Source of the DNA: Chitinophagaceae bacterium
Lineage (GTDB): Bacteria > Bacteroidota > Bacteroidia > Chitinophagales > Chitinophagaceae
DNA: 64,000 nt
Reading direction: 5' to 3'
Assembly (NCBI GenBank): GCA_022843585.1
Contig: JALHNJ010000001.1
Coordinates: 434,001 to 498,000 of the forward strand
Shown here: positions 54,425 to 62,100 of the stretch, one piece after another
Layout: every line of letters starts with the position of its first letter
Numbering within the stretch: the first letter of the stretch is position 1
Made by a program: the position numbers and the translations under genes
The notes under the pieces: generated by a model
Told to the model about the DNA's origin: nothing
Seen by the model: only the letters and a program-made list of their open reading frames with translations
The model's database searches: none

Positions 54425-55038
54425 TGGCAGCTATTAAAACAATAATCTTCGATTTAGGCGGAGTGCTAATTGACTGGAATCCGAAGTATGTCTTTAACAA
54501 TACCTATTTTGAGACAGAAGAAAAAAGAGAGTATTTCTTCAATCATATCTGCACCAGTGATTGGAACGAAGAGCAAGATGCAGGACGTTCAATTGTAGAA
54601 GCTACCGAAGAATTAATACAGCAGTTTCCTGATTGGGAAAAAGCTATCCGTGATTTTTATGGCCGCTGGACGGATATGCTCTACGGACCAATACAAGAAA
54701 CCGTAAATATTTTCCAACAACTAAAAGAATCTGGTAAATATAAAATTTATGCATTGACCAACTGGCAGGTTGGGCTTTTTGATATTGCACTTGTTCGCTA
54801 TAACTTCTTACATTGGTTTGATGGTCGTGTTGTTAGCGGCGAAGAAAAAATGAGAAAGCCCTTTCCTGAATTTTATAACCTATTGCTTAATCGCTATAAT
54901 GTAAAAGTAGAAGAAGCTTTGTTTATTGATGATAATTTGAGGAATGTAAAAGCGGCGGAGGAGTTGGGAATTAAATCTATTCATTTTCAATCTGCGGAGC
55001 AGATGAGTGAGAAACTGAAAGAAGCAGGAATATTCTAA
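54424..55038 (+). CDS. HAD-family phosphatase (YihX-like)
   Basis: A 204-residue HAD hydrolase. Motif I is IIFDLGGVLIDWNP with nucleophile Asp10; motif II Thr in YALTNWQ; the Lys in MRKPFPEFY; motif IV FIDDNLRNV. Like YihX of E. coli, a glucose-1-phosphatase, the position two after the nucleophile is Gly rather than Asp. Its one-base overlap with the SemiSWEET gene suggests a sugar-phosphate substrate whose product could leave or enter through the transporter; this is inference. Confidence 0.88.
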   Translation: MAAIKTIIFDLGGVLIDWNPKYVFNNTYFETEEKREYFFNHICTSDWNEEQDAGRSIVEATEELIQQFPDWEKAIRDFYGRWTDMLYGPIQETVNIFQQLKESGKYKIYALTNWQVGLFDIALVRYNFLHWFDGRVVSGEEKMRKPFPEFYNLLLNRYNVKVEEALFIDDNLRNVKAAEELGIKSIHFQSAEQMSEKLKEAGIF

Positions 55039-55053
55039 ATGTAATGGGAGCAA

Positions 55054-55854
55054 TTAATAATCTAAGATTATGGTATTATCTTTTTGCAGCCGGATAAAAA
55101 TTTTAAGGTATGACCTTACTGCTCTTCCTCCTTGTAGAGAAGGAGTCCAGCTTTTAGGTATTGTTAATATATCCATCATCGCCTGGGAAAATGGAGAATA
55201 ATTCCCTTCAATTAATTCAACTCTTTCCATGCTACTGTCCTTCCCACTAAGGACTGCTGAAAAAATCAGCACTGAATCCTGAATATTGTTTGTTAGAGAA
55301 ATTTTTTTTGCGTTTAAAGCTTGTTCAAGATTCGATTTTAATTTTTTAGTTCCACCAATGTAATCTCTGATTATTTCTACTTTTTCAAAAATTTTTACTT
55401 CTGGGTCAACATCAACGGGAATGGTTACACAAGTATAGCTAAGTTGAAGATTTATAGAATCTGGTGTTACAATCCCTCTTATATCGCAATGGGTATTACA
55501 AATTTTTTTTATCAGTATTGCAATTTCTTTCTCGGGGAATTGAAATGCTCCAAATTTTTTCTCTAATACATAAACATCTCCTTCGAAGTCAAGGTTATAG
55601 GACTCGTAATTTTTCCAATTAGTATAATTTTCATTTTCTTTCGCTTGCCAGATTGTTTTAGGGTAAATAGATAATGAACGGTATTGAGCTTCATTGGTAT
55701 AAAATACAATCTTTTTAATTGAAGGATTAGTTTGAAAATATTTAAGTGACGAAGTGTTGGTAAAAGCAGTGTCGAATTTTACTTCTATTTGAGCGAAAGA
55801 AGGCAAATAAAAAAATCCTAGGCATATAATACAAAATGCAAGTGCTTTATTCAT
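55054..55854 (-). CDS. Hypothetical secreted protein with TonB-C-like end
   Basis: A 266-residue exported protein, signal ending PSFAQ. Most of the chain is not recognised. The last ~75 residues (ALNAKKISLTNNIQDSVLIF, SKDSSMERVELIEG, then SWTPSLQGGRAVRSYLKIFI) follow the pattern of TonB C-terminal domains seen in many secreted Bacteroidota proteins. It is read just after metH on the same strand, 16 bases apart, and convergent with the HAD gene. Confidence 0.6.
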   Translation of the reverse strand: MNKALAFCIICLGFFYLPSFAQIEVKFDTAFTNTSSLKYFQTNPSIKKIVFYTNEAQYRSLSIYPKTIWQAKENENYTNWKNYESYNLDFEGDVYVLEKKFGAFQFPEKEIAILIKKICNTHCDIRGIVTPDSINLQLSYTCVTIPVDVDPEVKIFEKVEIIRDYIGGTKKLKSNLEQALNAKKISLTNNIQDSVLIFSAVLSGKDSSMERVELIEGNYSPFSQAMMDILTIPKSWTPSLQGGRAVRSYLKIFIRLQKDNTIILDY

Positions 55855-55870
55855 TCTCTGAAGTTATAAT

Positions 55871-58582
55871 TTACTCCAACACCGGCCTCAACCATTTCTC
55901 CGCTTCTTCCAAACTCATTCCTTTTCTTTTGGCGTAATTCTCTAACTGGTCTTTACCAATTTTACCCAAGCCAAAATAATGACTTTGTGGATGAGCTATG
56001 TACCAACCACAAACAGAAGCAGGTGGGTTCATTGCCAAACTTTCTGTTAACTCAATGCCGATGTTTTGGGTAACATTCATTAAGTCGAACAGCTTGATCT
56101 TCTCTGTATGGTCAGGACAGGCAGGATAGCCCGGCGCAGGGCGAACACCTTTATATTCTTCTCTTATTAACTCTTCGTTGGTAAGTGTTTCATTTTTTTC
56201 ATAGCCCCAATATTCCTTCCTTGTTTTTTGGTGCAGGCATTCAGCAAAGGCTTCTACAAAACGGTCGGCTAATATTTGTACTAATATTTTATTGTAGTCA
56301 TCATGGTCATCATTGAATCGGTCAATATGTTTTTTGGCACCATGAATAGTAACAGCGAATGAACCCATGTAATCATTACCCAATTCTTTGGGGCAAATAA
56401 AATCAGCTAATGAATAACTTGGCTGTCCCACCGCTTTTTTCAATTGCTGGCGAAGCGATTCTAATTTTACTTCTCCTTTTTCTGTTTGTAAGGTAACCGT
56501 ATCAGCATTGTTGCTGGTGGCCGGCCAGAAACCAATAACACCTTCCGCCCTGAACCAATTCTCTTTTATGATCTGCTCCACCATTTTTTGTGCATCATTG
56601 TAAAGACGGGTAGCTTCTTCTCCAAAAATTTTATCGGATAATACTTGCGGAAAATGACCGGGCATTTCCCAGGCGATGAAGAAAGGACCCCAATCAATAT
56701 ATTTTGCAATAGTGGCCAAGTCAAAATCTTTAATGACTTTGGTGCCTTCTACTGCAGGTTTGGTAGGCGTATAATTTTTCCAGTCGAAATATTCTTTGGT
56801 AATAACAGCTTCTTCATACGAGATCATTGATTTCTTACCCTTATTCAGAAATTGAGTTCTCAATGTTTCGTATTCATCTTGTGTTTTTTTGATCAGGGGT
56901 TGTTTTTCTTTACTGAGTAAAGTGCTTACCGCTGTTACACTTCTGGATGCATCCAGAATGTGCAATACTCCATTATCATATTGCGGTGCGATCTTTACAG
57001 CTGTATGCATTCTTGATGTAGTTGCACCACCGATTAACAACGGCTGCTTCATCCCACGGCGTTTCATTTCATGTGCCACATGCACCATCTCATCTAATGA
57101 CGGAGTGATCAATCCGCTTAATCCGATAATATCTGCTTTTTCTTTTTCAGCCGTATCTAATATTTTATCGGCAGGTACCATTACACCAAGATCGATAATA
57201 TCATAACCATTACAGCCTAATACAACGCCGACAATGTTTTTGCCAATATCATGTACATCACCTTTTACCGTAGCTAATAGAACTTTTGGTGCACCTGCTG
57301 CTTCTTCATTTACCGTTCCGGCTGCTAAGTGAGCTTGTTTTCTATCTTCTTTTTCCTGTTCAATAAAAGGAGTGAGGACGGCTACACTTTTTTTCATTAC
57401 TCTTGCACTCTTTACTACTTGCGGTAAAAACATTTTACCGGCACCAAACAGATCTCCCACGACATTCATTCCATCCATCAACGGGCCTTCAATTACATCT
57501 AGAGGTTTAGGATATTTTTGTCTGGCTTCTTCTGTATCTGCATCAATGTAATCAGTTATACCATTTACCAATGAATGTTTTAATCTTTCTTCAACCGAAG
57601 TTTCTCTCCAGCTTTCATCTTTAATATTCTCTTTGCCTTTTGCTTTTACAGTTTCTGCAAAGGAAATAAGGCTTTCTGTGGCTTCGTTGTTATCATTATT
57701 GCGATTCAGGATTACATCTTCGCACAGTTGTTTCAATTTCGGTTCTATCTCATCGTATACTACCAACTGCCCGGCATTTACAATGCCCATATCCATACCT
57801 GCTTTAATTGCATAATATAGAAATACGCTGTTCATAGCTTCCCGCACATGGTCGTTGCCACGAAATGCAAAAGAAAGATTGCTCACACCACCACTCACTT
57901 TTGTCAATGGCATCAATTGCTTTATTTCTTTGGTAGCTTCTATAAAATCAACGCCGTAGTTGTTATGTTCTTCCATGCCTGTGGCAATGGCGAAAATATT
58001 GGGGTCGAATATGATGTCCTGCGGATCGTAGCCAACTTGTTCGGTTAATATTTTATAAGCCCGGTGACAGATCTCAACTTTTCTTTCTTTTGTATCGGCT
58101 TGTCCTTTTTCGTCAAACGCCATTACAATTACTGAAGCTCCATAGCTCTGGCAAATGATTGCCTGCTCAATGAACTTTGCCTCACCTTCTTTCATGGAGA
58201 TGGAATTCACAATACATTTACCCTGCACACATTTTAAGCCGGCTTCTATGATCTCGAACTTGGAACTATCGATCATGATGGGGATCTTGGCAATATCCGG
58301 CTCACTTTGTACCAGGTTCAGGAAAGTTGTCATGGCGAGTACACCATCCAGCAATGCATCATCCATGTTTACATCTAATACCTGTGCACCGTTTTCCACC
58401 TGCTGACGGGCCACACTTAATGCTTCTTCGTATTTATTTTCTTTGATAAGCCGGGCAAACATTTTAGAACCGGTAACATTGGTACGTTCACCAACGTTCA
58501 CAAAATTTGTTTCCGGACGAATAACGAGTGGCTCTAATCCTGATAACCGTAAGAACGGTTTTATTACAACACTGTCCTGCAT
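55871..58582 (-). CDS. metH: Cobalamin-dependent methionine synthase, C-terminal subunit (folate, B12 and activation domains)
   Basis: A 903-residue protein that lacks the homocysteine-binding module, which is the upstream gene. A pterin-binding domain (about 20-285: [30 protein letters not shown]) is followed by the B12 cap (330-415) and the B12-binding domain (430-560), with cobalt-ligand His444 in [15 protein letters not shown] and SGL/GGATTS. The activation domain that binds SAM is at about 590-890 ([15 protein letters not shown]). The split into two polypeptides is usual in Bacteroidota. The ATG follows directly after the stop of a 32-residue ORF (TAAATG). Confidence 0.95.
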
Positions 58583-58681
58583 TTATGAAGTCTTTTTTAC
58601 AAACAACTTTTTGATCATTGAAAAGTTGTTTACAATGAGAATAAGTAAGGCGACGATGATAAGAATGTTTGCTGTTGTCAT
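58583..58681 (-). CDS. 32-residue membrane micro-ORF between the two metH genes
   Basis: A short ORF that fills the gap exactly. Its ATG overlaps the upstream metH stop as ATGA, and its TAA is followed at once by the ATG of the downstream metH gene. The peptide starts [20 protein letters not shown], a single hydrophobic helix, and ends with a basic tail ([12 protein letters not shown]). The spacing and the charge pattern argue for a translated membrane microprotein, or at least for translational coupling through the gap. Not known to me in metH operons. A chance ORF is possible given its length. Confidence 0.5.
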
Positions 58682-59679
58682 ACAAGTTCTTTTTGAACAA
58701 CGGGTAGTTGTCTTGGTGCAATATTTTTTACTTCGTCTGCAATATGCTTTATATGATCCGGAGTAGTGCCGCAGCAGCCACCCACAATATTAACCCAACC
58801 TTCTTTAGCCCAATCTTCTAAATAATGAGCTGTATCTGTTGGATGTTCATCATATTCTCCCATGGCATTAGGTAATCCAGCATTAGGATAAGCCGATACA
58901 TAGCAACTTGCTATTTGCGAAAGCTCTTCTATATGCGGACGCATTTCTTTGGCACCTAAGGCACAATTTAAACCGATGCTTAATGGCTTGGCATGCATTA
59001 CGGATGTATAGAATGCTTCTAATGTTTGTCCGCTTAAAGTTCTGCCGGATGCATCGGTGATTGTTCCGCTGATCATAACCGGAAGCGATTCTTTCTGCAC
59101 ATCTCTGAAATATTTTTTGATAGCAAAGATGGCTGCTTTAGCATTTAATGTATCGAAGATGGTTTCGATCAATAACAGATCAACACCACCATCAACCAAA
59201 CCTTTTACCTGTTCGTAATAGGCTTCTACAACTTCATCAAATGTAACTGCACGGAAACCGGGATTGTTTACATCTGGTGAAAGGGATAATGTTTTATTTA
59301 AAGGGCCGATAGCACCAGCAACCCAAGCTTGTTTACCGGTTTGTTTAATTGCTTCTTTTGCACATTTTGCGGCGGCAACATTTAACTCGTAGGCTAATGA
59401 TTGCATTTCATAATCGGCCATGGCAATGGTGGTGCTGCTGAATGTATTGGTCTCAATAATATCTGCACCGGCATCTAAATATTCTTTGTGTATTGCGGTG
59501 ATGATCTGCGGTTGAGTAATATTCAACAGATCGTTATTGCCTTTTACATCGCTATGCCAATCTTTAAAACGTTCGCCACGATAATCTGCTTCGGATAATT
59601 TATACCGCTGTATCATGGTGCCCATGGCACCATCGATGATGAGGATTCTTTTTTCCAACTCTTTTCTTATATCACCCAT
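58678..59679 (-). CDS. metH: Homocysteine S-methyltransferase module of split MetH
   Basis: A 333-residue protein from ATG 59679. It holds the N-terminal homocysteine-binding TIM barrel of Met[33 protein letters not shown], and zinc ligands in GLNCALGA and GGCCGTTP. The frame extends 66 bases upstream, but that part lacks conserved residues and is dropped. With the 903-residue gene downstream it makes a complete MetH. No cobalamin or SAM riboswitch motif was noticed in the 290-base upstream gap. Confidence 0.94.
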
Positions 59680-59738
59680 AGTTGTATTTTTTCTCTTGCA
59701 ATGACGCAAAGGCGCAAGACAAGAGGATTTTTTGACAG

Positions 59739-59787
59739 TGCTCATCTGTGTTACTACTGCACAAGTGTGCGACGCAAGGGACGATGC
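59739..59787 (-). repeat. Dispersed intergenic repeat, copy A (uninterrupted)
   Basis: On the - strand it reads GCATCGTCCCTTGCG, TCGCACACTT, then ends in TAACACAGATGAGCA. It matches copy C (27642-27710) at both ends and lacks the 20-bp palindrome. It lies in the 290-base gap between metH and recR, which shows no other gene. Confidence 0.75.
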
Positions 59788-59969
59788 TAGTAGTAATGCA
59801 GCTGGCTACATAAATTTTATTCAATGGAACTATAAACGTTGGGAAACCGTATGCGGTGTTCTTAGACGTTTATTAGTTCTTTTTTTAGCAGGCCGAACAA
59901 TAAACAAATCCGCCTGTGAATGTGGGGCAAAGCTACATTATATAGGTTGAATAAGCAAGTCTGTCAGCA

Positions 59970-60590
59970 TCAACGATGGGATACATAACTCTCTACCGGT
60001 AAGCGGTTTTGCAGGCTGCGGGCAAGGGTCATTTCATCGGCATATTCCAGCTCTCCGCCAAAGGCAATGCCTCGGGCAATGGTGGTGATGCGGATGCCCG
60101 TTGGTTGCAGCTTCTTTTGTATGTAATAAATAGTGGTATCTCCTTGTATATTAGGGTTCAATGCAAAGATGAGCTCTTCTGTTTTTTCCTTTTCAATACG
60201 ATGGACAAGAGAATCTATATTGAGTTGATCGGGGCCAATACCATCTAATGGCGAGATAACACCGTTCAATACATGGTAAGTGCCGTTGAATTGTTGGGTG
60301 CTTTCGATGGCGATAACATCACGGATACTTTCAACTACACAAATCACTTCTTGCTTGCGGCTGGAGTTGGAGCAAATAGAACAAATATCTCCATCGGCTA
60401 CATTATAGCAACGCTGGCAAAATTTTATTTCGCTGCGCATACGGGCAATGACTTCGCTGAACTGCCCTACTTCTTTACTGTCTTGTTTTAATAAATGCAA
60501 TACCAAACGTAACGCTGTTTTTTTACCAATACCGGGTAGTTTGGCAAATTCGTTGACGGCGTTTTCCAATAAAGAAGAAGAAAATTGCAT
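59970..60590 (-). CDS. recR: Recombination protein RecR
   Basis: A 206-residue RecR of the RecFOR gap-repair pathway, from ATG 60590. An N-terminal HhH segment (EFAKLPGIGKKTALRLVLHL), a C4 zinc finger (CQRCYNVADGDICSICS) and a Toprim domain (VICVVESIRDVIAIE, GGELEYADEMTLARSL) are in the normal order. A longer frame reaches 60659 but lacks conserved residues. The -7 box TATCTTTG ends four bases before the ATG, so a leaderless transcript is expected. Confidence 0.96.
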   Translation of the reverse strand: MQFSSSLLENAVNEFAKLPGIGKKTALRLVLHLLKQDSKEVGQFSEVIARMRSEIKFCQRCYNVADGDICSICSNSSRKQEVICVVESIRDVIAIESTQQFNGTYHVLNGVISPLDGIGPDQLNIDSLVHRIEKEKTEELIFALNPNIQGDTTIYYIQKKLQPTGIRITTIARGIAFGGELEYADEMTLARSLQNRLPVESYVSHR

Positions 60591-60594
60591 GAAA

Positions 60595-60628
60595 CAAAGA
60601 TAGTCAATGGTGAATAGTGAATGGTCAA
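60595..60628 (-). promoter_or_regulatory. recR promoter with the -7 box four bases from the ATG
   Basis: On the - strand, TTG (60628-60626), 23 bases, TATCTTTG (60602-60595), TTTC, ATG. The same TAnnTTTG-N4-ATG arrangement is seen at 47641-47653. Confidence 0.55.
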
Positions 60629-60672
60629 TAGGATTGCTGAAAGAATGGGATTTATTCACAATTGACTATTCA

Positions 60673-62100
60673 CTAAAGAGCTATTTCAAACTCATTCACC
60701 CAATTGGGTTTTATAATTATTTTTCGTTCTACCGGTTTTACGAGTTCGGGCTGTTTGCGTTTGCCGAAGAATTGGCCGGGATCCCAGATGCCGTTCTTAT
60801 TTTCATCATACAGGAACCGGAGTTCATATTCACCTGGGATGAATAAGGTTTGTGAAAATTCCGGGCTGGTCATTGGTACAGATTTGATAATTTGACCAGC
60901 ACTTACAAAAAGCAAAACGGGATTTTTAGAGATATCAAGATTGCGGAATCTAAGTTTTAGTCCGCCGTAGTCGCCTGTTTTTTTAGTGATAAAACTGAGG
61001 GTATCGGTCTTTAATAGTTTTTGTCCCGTAGTATCTTCTGCAAAATCTTTATCAATAATGATGTGGTATTGTGTAGCAGGGATCCAGGTGTTGGTGAGAA
61101 GTAGTTTTTTTCCGGTACTGTCTTGTGTAAACTTTGCAGATGTATCAGGAATAAAGGTAGAGTCGGTGTATAACCTGATTTTTGATGAATCAAATTTTCG
61201 AAGTGGTAAGCTGAATGATAATTGAAGCGGGGTTAATAAATCATGCAGGCCATTTACCACAGTTGATTGCGGACGTAATCTCCTTTCTATAGCAATGCCA
61301 CCGGGCCCGGTACGTCTGCCCCCGCCATCAGTTGTTGTTGTAGTTGCAGCAACTGGTTTTGCTGTTGCATAAGCATATAAAATAATTGAATCTCTATTAC
61401 CAGAAAGTACAATAGGTTTATCTGAAAAGGCGAACAGATCTTCATCTTTTGAATACCGGAGTAAACCACTTTCATCTTTTAATGCATAGAGATAAAAAGT
61501 TTTGGGAGGAAGATTTTTAAAATGGAAGTTTCCCTTGTTGTCAAGTTTAGCAAGATACCGTGGCCTGTCTTTCATAACAGCAGAATCATTGGGATTGGTA
61601 TGCAGCATTACAATCAATGTAGTATCAATTTTACCTGTCTCAGCCAGTATAACGGAGCCTCTCAATTCCAGGGAATCAAAATAGTTACCGGTAGTGAAAG
61701 TGTAGGTAAAATTTTTCAGCACATTGCCTTCGTTATAATCTTTTATGGCATTGCCAAAGTTTATGGTGTAAGTAGTGTTAGCTTCAAGGCTATCCTTCAA
61801 GGGAACGATGATCTGATTTAATCTTACATAAGGTTCGGGGGTATTTACCGGTAAGGGAGATATCAACAAATTTTCCCGTGCATTTTGAATATCAACAAAT
61901 TCATTAAAGGTTAATACAAATCTCTTTTCTTTAAAACCTCTTGTTGAATCAAGCGGAGTAGCTTTTATTAATATGGGTGGCAACGAATCTCTTGGACCAC
62001 CTTGTGGCGGAATAATGTTGGCGCAACCGGAACCACTGAATATGCTGATAGCAATTAGTACAATAAAGGCCGCTGCTGATATTAAACTTTTGGAGTTCAT
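60673..62100 (-). CDS. Ig-like (Big_5) domain lipoprotein
   Basis: A 475-residue lipoprotein; the signal ends in SGSGC, and the mature N-terminus NIIPPQGGPRDSLPPIL is highly typical of a conserved Bacteroidota lipoprotein family. A SbsA/Big_5 Ig-like domain is at about 40-140 (KRFVLTFNEFVDIQNA, TYTINFGNAIKDYNEGN). A carboxypeptidase-regulatory-like segment follows (KGNFHFKNLPPKTFYLYAL), then a second Ig-like part and a C-terminal beta domain with DENKNGIWDPGQF. The function is unknown; genes of this family often sit near housekeeping genes. It is on the same strand as recR, 82 bases apart. Confidence 0.82.
   Translation of the reverse strand: MNSKSLISAAAFIVLIAISIFSGSGCANIIPPQGGPRDSLPPILIKATPLDSTRGFKEKRFVLTFNEFVDIQNARENLLISPLPVNTPEPYVRLNQIIVPLKDSLEANTTYTINFGNAIKDYNEGNVLKNFTYTFTTGNYFDSLELRGSVILAETGKIDTTLIVMLHTNPNDSAVMKDRPRYLAKLDNKGNFHFKNLPPKTFYLYALKDESGLLRYSKDEDLFAFSDKPIVLSGNRDSIILYAYATAKPVAATTTTTDGGGRRTGPGGIAIERRLRPQSTVVNGLHDLLTPLQLSFSLPLRKFDSSKIRLYTDSTFIPDTSAKFTQDSTGKKLLLTNTWIPATQYHIIIDKDFAEDTTGQKLLKTDTLSFITKKTGDYGGLKLRFRNLDISKNPVLLFVSAGQIIKSVPMTSPEFSQTLFIPGEYELRFLYDENKNGIWDPGQFFGKRKQPELVKPVERKIIIKPNWVNEFEIAL

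Follow-up and report, generated by a model that had tools for sequence, protein, structure and literature searches.

The 32-codon open reading frame that lies between the two halves of a split methionine synthase gene (metH) in this Chitinophagaceae bacterium raises the question of whether it is a chance frame, a device for translating the enzyme, or a gene for a membrane protein of its own. We analysed it in the window, by which we mean the whole 64,000-nucleotide stretch of DNA, and in genomes of the same genus, family, order and phylum.

Organization of the split metH locus

The initial annotation had reported a micro-ORF bridging the metH halves, with ATGA at its start and TAA/ATG at its end; its coordinates were confirmed, and the ORF is assigned here to the minus strand, which had been left unstated (Table 1). 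The split itself was borne out by the Pfam domains, with the methyltransferase domain upstream and Pterin_bind, B12-binding_2, B12-binding and Met_synt_B12 downstream; together, the two adjacent ORFs hold in complementary fashion the domain set of a complete MetH. The listed start of the N-half is probably too far upstream: since relatives (e.g., loci L090 and L094, the latter from the micro-ORF carrier Chitinophagaceae bacterium IBVUCB2) begin at the place equivalent to 59679, its protein would have 333 aa.

Table 1. Features of the metH locus in the window
Feature	Position	Strand	Remarks
metH N-half	58678..59745	-	355-aa ORF as listed; S-methyl_trans PF02574, E 8.4e-104; homocysteine S-methyltransferase domain
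Conserved 32-aa microprotein gene	58583..58681	-	32 codons, between the metH halves; homologues, open frame, dN/dS
ATGA, N-half stop and micro-ORF start	58678..58681	-	ATG 58681-58679 overlaps TGA 58680-58678; equal offset in 28/35 distinct copies
Hydrophobic segment, codons 6-23	58613..58666	-	mean Kyte-Doolittle 2.74 over 18 residues
Inverted repeat within coding sequence	58600..58632	-	12-bp stem including one T-G pair, 9-base loop; only part of the family
AAAAAG, codons 29-30	58592..58597	-	-15 to -10 of the C-half ATG; nucleotide-level fixation
TAA/ATG junction, micro-ORF stop and C-half start	58580..58585	-	TAA 58585-58583 abuts ATG 58582-58580; kept within 3 bases in 35/35 distinct copies
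metH C-half	55871..58582	-	903 aa; PF00809, PF02607, PF02310, PF02965: folate, cobalamin-binding and reactivation domains

A MetH with the same split point has been described in GapMind for Burkholderia phytofirmans PsJN and, unlike the locus studied here, it comes with no mention of an intervening peptide in the accessible part of that article (PMC7311316). In our sample of Bacteroidota, many families have MetH as one frame of about 1,210-1,310 aa and others have it split, with a C-part of about 900 aa similar to the one found here; the split appears patchily in the phylum. No intervening peptide was seen in two split loci inspected outside the family (L219 and L223).

The two ends of the micro-ORF differ in constancy. 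Among 35 distinct copies collected without a position filter, the stop codon abuts the C-half start in 29, overlaps it by one base in 4 and lies 3 bases before it in 2; the 33 copies that overlap or abut display the arrangement typical of termination-reinitiation. At the 5′ end, ATGA is found in 28 copies, and the start lies 11 to 33 bases past the N-half stop in the other 7. As the 3′ junction is constant and the 5′ junction variable, coupling to the C-half is the constant feature of the arrangement. Overlapping stop/start pairs of the ATGA/TGATG type are reported to be strictly coupled in 13 of 14 tested cases from Haloferax and E. coli, as far as the accessible text of that study goes (PMC6728339).

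Distribution of the micro-ORF

A profile built from the peptide (A3) matched 19 of the 42 genomes of the genus. Eighteen of these matches lie between both metH halves, and in the 19th (genome G004) a contig break interrupts the ORF, leaving the N-half next to one piece and the C-half next to the other. The first genus sample of 29 genomes yielded 25 loci with both halves, 12 of which carry the ORF, with ATGA upstream and the stop abutting or overlapping the C-half start, while 13 lack it and have gaps of 4 to 29 bases; since these 13 loci hold both halves, MetH works without the peptide. An earlier profile (A2) gave 18 strong matches (E 1.5e-9 or better) among 294 genomes of the family, representing 8 genera and all located between metH halves, and the next-best match had an E-value of 0.005. 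The samples of the order (248 genomes) and the phylum (296 genomes), which overlap that of the family, gave 4 and 2 strong matches, respectively, all in family members, and none was seen outside Chitinophagaceae. Weak matches (E between 0.003 and 0.1) were regarded as background, and among those whose loci were fetched, no metH N-half was present at 12 loci from the family or at four from the order (E from 0.003 to 0.008; three of the four lie outside the family). Scanning named genomes with a sequence pattern returned 20 loci, 18 with the ORF between both halves and 2 at contig ends; their records read Chitinophagaceae, Chitinophagales, Bacteroidia, Bacteroidetes or Bacteroidota. Judging by these searches, in the genomes covered the micro-ORF family does not seem to extend beyond Chitinophagaceae or to occur anywhere but in the metH gap.

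Even there it is patchy and dispensable, and absent from most of the family: 23 of the 42 genus genomes and 276 of the 294 family genomes gave no strong match, and the N-half is matched in 288 of the latter. Absence is not always loss, because several genomes are incomplete. In some relatives only 0 to 6 bases separate the metH halves, with no peptide between them (e.g., L154, L176, L186, L003 and L006), and gap ORFs other than the micro-ORF (L135, L138, L142, L164, L191 and L192) were excluded by a stricter test. The gap of L144, which gives no profile match, starts with a 26-aa hydrophobic ORF, MITLTISVINFVILCASVVQKILWLK, either a chance frame or a distant cousin. The refuting condition named initially, a gap of varying length or frame in related genomes, gave a divided answer: the gap varies greatly over the family, and the copies of the ORF that do occur hold to a length of 30 to 33 aa, to the frame and to the 3′ junction. 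No credible match to a known family was obtained from Pfam (best E 0.11), NCBIfam (0.51), PHROGs (0.02, 2 of 23 members) or PDB sequences (2.1).

To place these loci in a phylogenetic context, a tree was built from MetH pieces of 134 loci, 30 with the micro-ORF, 24 with an insert ORF longer than 90 aa and 80 with neither, leaving out 8 too-short loci, duplicates and loci that did not contain both halves; its deep nodes are poorly supported. Presence of the micro-ORF is clustered, requiring 12 parsimony changes versus a mean of 27.3 for shuffled labels, and its history is either mostly vertical with repeated loss or one of few transfers; a single basal gain would require 14 losses. In the genus, the genomes of all 19 carriers measure at least 2.6 Mb (there are 25 in that size range), and none of the 17 genomes of 2.1 Mb or less is a carrier. 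This pattern is not independent evidence, since the set includes incomplete genomes and the small ones may belong to a single clade.

Nuclease-like ORFs have also been inserted repeatedly into the metH gap of Chitinophagaceae. The 24 tree loci with inserts are scattered (21 changes versus 22.4 when shuffled). PDDEXK_3 or GxxExxY-like inserts are found at L035, L039, L043, L050, L052, L146, L147, L163, L170, L174, L177, L179 and others, ORF6N-like ones at L053, L055, L120, L142 and L148, DUF1016/YhcG-like ones at L136, L140 and L162, and an Exo_endo_phos insert with an N-terminal hydrophobic stretch at L138; these types were verified in Pfam for L146, L120, L136 and L138, and the other labels were given by resemblance. 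Short gaps at L051, L150, L192 and L195 contain pieces resembling the repeat GGCACAAAGGCGCAAAG / CTTTGTGCCTTTGCGCC and its relatives, which may flank, or remain from, PDDEXK_3-like inserts.

Selection on the encoded peptide

Selection was analysed in 33 distinct DNA copies chosen by a filter (ATG start, 29-34 aa, NN[FY], stop no more than 4 bases from the C-half start), so that the Asn pair and the 3′ junction were to some extent imposed by the choice of copies. When the search was repeated on profile score with these requirements dropped, the outcome was the same (77 loci, the 35 distinct copies mentioned above); the profile still favours likeness, and its scores were bimodal, at over 25 bits and then at 6 or less. 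Frame 0 is open in all 33 filtered copies, and stops occur in frame +1 in 33 and in frame +2 in 27 of them. The low dN/dS that had been named at the outset as a check was indeed obtained, with a median of 0.20 (Nei-Gojobori) over 225 usable pairs of 528, the remaining 303 having been dropped for a dS that was undefined, zero, or 2.5 and above; the N-half has a lower median, 0.057 over 198 usable pairs.

Three residues, L7, I14 and L15, are invariant in 33/33 copies and are written with six, three and four codons, respectively, and this combination of invariant residues with varied codons argues for selection at the protein level. N18 and N19 are invariant in the filtered copies, and NN is present in 35/35 distinct copies without the filter; position 11 is Ser or Ala, and position 21 is Ser or Thr in 32/33. 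In a helix, positions 7, 11, 14, 18 and 21 would share one face. With homologues in the same placement in 19 of the 42 genus genomes and frame 0 open in every filtered copy, the micro-ORF is not a product of chance and, on this comparative evidence, is a real gene family under purifying selection; the idea that it is a microprotein gene is thereby upheld as far as selection and hydrophobicity are concerned.

Constraint at the nucleotide level

Some conservation in the second half of the ORF is nucleotide-driven. Lys29-Lys30 is encoded by AAA AAG in 28/28 distinct copies with Lys-Lys (26/26 in the filtered set), compared with a background for Lys-Lys of 24/134 in the window and 154/833 in the fetched loci (about 18%). 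Adenines at -12 and -13 are reported to favour initiation in Flavobacterium johnsoniae, in the accessible part of the study (PMC6847099); AAG could also be preferred because it breaks up long runs of A. The second element is a hairpin that spans codons 17-28 in part of the copies (-8.9 kcal/mol in the window copy). Two third-base column pairs covary in it: columns 6-30 with UA in 13, CG in 8, UG in 1 and unpaired bases in 8 of 30 rows, and columns 9-27 with CG in 12, UA in 6, UG in 1 and unpaired bases in 11 of 30. The numbers of paired stem cells and of cells with both sides changed (22 versus 12.2 in shuffles) and the covariation score exceed shuffled expectations, being reached by 5, 0 and 5 of 500 shuffles, respectively. 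The other two of the five measures do not stand out from shuffles, the count of pairs with changes on both sides being reached by 346/500 and that of additional pair types by 485/500. In ten of the 33 copies, some closely related to one another, the fold is better than in synonymous shuffles (p <=0.05); the mean z is -1.2. RNAalifold found no structure common to all 30 rows, and the hairpin therefore belongs to part of the family.

Synonymous divergence is reduced as well: among the 15 pairs with the lowest ORF dS, the ORF value was below that of the N-half in 13 of 13 comparable pairs (e.g., 0.51 versus 1.82 for L001/L002), which is explained at least partly by the constraint that AAAAAG and the hairpin place on nucleotides. 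A search of positions 55000-61000 against Rfam gave no family at threshold and no nearby riboswitch, the sole match being to a miRNA family on the other strand (27 bits versus a threshold of 90).

Predicted membrane character

The hydrophobic helix and basic tail described in the initial annotation recur throughout the family: in all 33 copies an 18-residue stretch has a mean hydropathy of 1.8 to 2.7 and the net charge after the Asn pair is +1 to +5. For the window peptide and 17 relatives, AlphaFold2 predicts helices at residues 3-18 and 20-31 with a break at N19 (mean pLDDT 86, pTM only 0.43, last two residues weak); the second helix would be basic and amphipathic. Hydropathy, charge and the predicted helices together point to a peptide that would insert in a membrane, with a hydrophobic core of about 12 residues ahead of the Asn pair, which is short for a full span.

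CydX, AcrZ and KdpF are single-helix accessory microproteins of about 30 residues, encoded in the operons of their partners, which are membrane complexes. The micro-ORF product resembles them in its length of about 30 residues (below the limit of about 50 aa for CydX-like peptides), its one hydrophobic helix and its place in the operon of a putative partner; it shows no sequence match to them and, in contrast to their partners, the adjacent MetH has the domains of a soluble enzyme.

Alternative explanations and the preferred reading

We put at about one half the probability that the product of the micro-ORF is a membrane microprotein whose synthesis keeps step with that of the C-half and which tethers or modulates the split MetH. 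Ribosomes finishing the N-half, or starting just after it, would translate the 30 to 33-residue peptide, and its stop would pass them on to the C-half start, such that the peptide and the C-half would be made in step, as the junctions suggest. The peptide would then probably insert in the inner membrane through its hydrophobic helix in N-out/C-in orientation, leaving the basic amphipathic tail (F20-S32) on the cytoplasmic face; the conserved heptad face (L7, S/A11, I14, N18, S/T21) may pack against another copy of the peptide or against a partner, and the peptide would act as an accessory, dispensable subunit that tethers or modulates the split MetH at the membrane. Several observations count against this reading, namely the soluble-enzyme domain content of MetH, which works without the peptide, the lack of a strong match in most genomes, the short hydrophobic core, the low pTM, the part of the conservation that is nucleotide-driven, and a dN/dS higher than that of the N-half. 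A bolder version is doubtful, though still worth stating: methionine synthase would consist of three parts, one of them a transmembrane subunit of its own that is produced in concert with the cobalamin-carrying half and places a normally soluble B12 enzyme at the inner membrane, e.g., near B12 uptake or an electron donor.

The main rival, itself rather unlikely, is a role in cis, as a leader or coupling peptide whose translation would open the hairpin and feed ribosomes to the A-rich C-half start, with a variant in which the nascent peptide perhaps pauses in the tunnel in response to a metabolite. The constancy of the 3′ junction beside a varying 5′ junction, the fixed AAAAAG at a position where adenines help initiation in F. 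johnsoniae, and the doubly changed stem cells and better-than-shuffled folds all speak for it. Translated uORFs are reported to modulate metE and ppe2 in Mycobacterium tuberculosis, and in the accessible part of that work (PMC11260477) they are likewise short translated ORFs coupled to a downstream gene, that of metE serving methionine synthesis. The micro-ORF differs in lying between enzyme halves, in its amino-acid selection and in having no riboswitch nearby in the Rfam search. Against a role in cis stands, above all, selection on amino acids. The hairpin is lineage-specific, shared by part of the copies and within shuffled expectations by two measures, and no Rfam family reaches its threshold in the region searched. 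A leader peptide would also call for an RNA structure that switches upon its translation, for which the hairpin of these copies is a candidate. Stop-codon arrest peptides of the TnaC type keep fixed residues next to the stalled codon, and such a peptide is disfavoured here because the residues before the stop vary (NS, TS, NT, ED, DL, QQ, KI, KTV). Some relatives join the halves by 0 to 6 bases without any ORF, which speaks against the need for a hand-over device. The initial suggestion of ribosome hand-over between the subunits is in keeping with the conserved C-half junction, and amino-acid selection and these peptide-less joins count against a pure device.

It is unlikely, in our estimate, that a true membrane microprotein merely rides in the metH operon while serving another membrane complex, even though its membrane character is clearer than its link to a soluble enzyme and it is dispensable and was found in none of the 17 small genomes of the genus. 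The absence of strong matches outside the metH gap in the overlapping family, order and phylum samples would be unusual for a passenger, and the kept C-half junction argues in the same direction. That the frame arose by chance or is left over from an inserted element, for which one could invoke the other inserted ORFs that the gap takes in the family, is hardly credible in view of the 33 distinct open copies and their dN/dS, and of the contrast on the tree between scattered inserts and a clustered micro-ORF.

Four further candidates were set aside. A programmed -1 frameshift at A AAA AAG, suggested by the invariable spelling of Lys-Lys, is not accepted as a general way of making a fusion: micro-ORF and C-half share a frame in 29 of 33 copies, where the shift would miss the C-half, and the base preceding AAA varies (A 21, T 6, C 4 and G 2 of 33). 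The shift would enter the C-half frame in the 4 copies with a one-base overlap (L026, L069, L070 and L074). Attenuation upon methionine starvation is unlikely, since Met is not conserved inside the peptide, and co-translational targeting of polysomes to the membrane is judged unlikely because a 32-residue chain stays within the ribosome tunnel. No conclusion is drawn on MetE as an explanation for the presence of the micro-ORF, their association being weak and uncorrected for kinship, and most carriers having no PF08267 match. Partial MetE-like matches to PF08267 occur in 4 of 29 genus genomes (G000, G008, G010 and G028), in frames of 342-352 aa, at 33 to 36 bits (cut-off 27) and covering only positions 136-309 of 313; all four genomes carry the micro-ORF, and none of the 16 genomes without it in this sample, which includes 13 carriers, has a match.

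Small coupled ORFs have precedents, as do single-helix microproteins; among the matches listed in searches of the open-access literature on methionine synthase or Chitinophagaceae, there was no such peptide. If the micro-ORF does encode a membrane microprotein, its tie to a split, soluble enzyme that depends on B12 would be new. Should the peptide tether MetH, the supply of B12 or of electrons would be spatially tied to methionine synthesis; should it instead be a coupling peptide, it would represent a selected translation device between the halves of an enzyme, in a phylum without Shine-Dalgarno starts.
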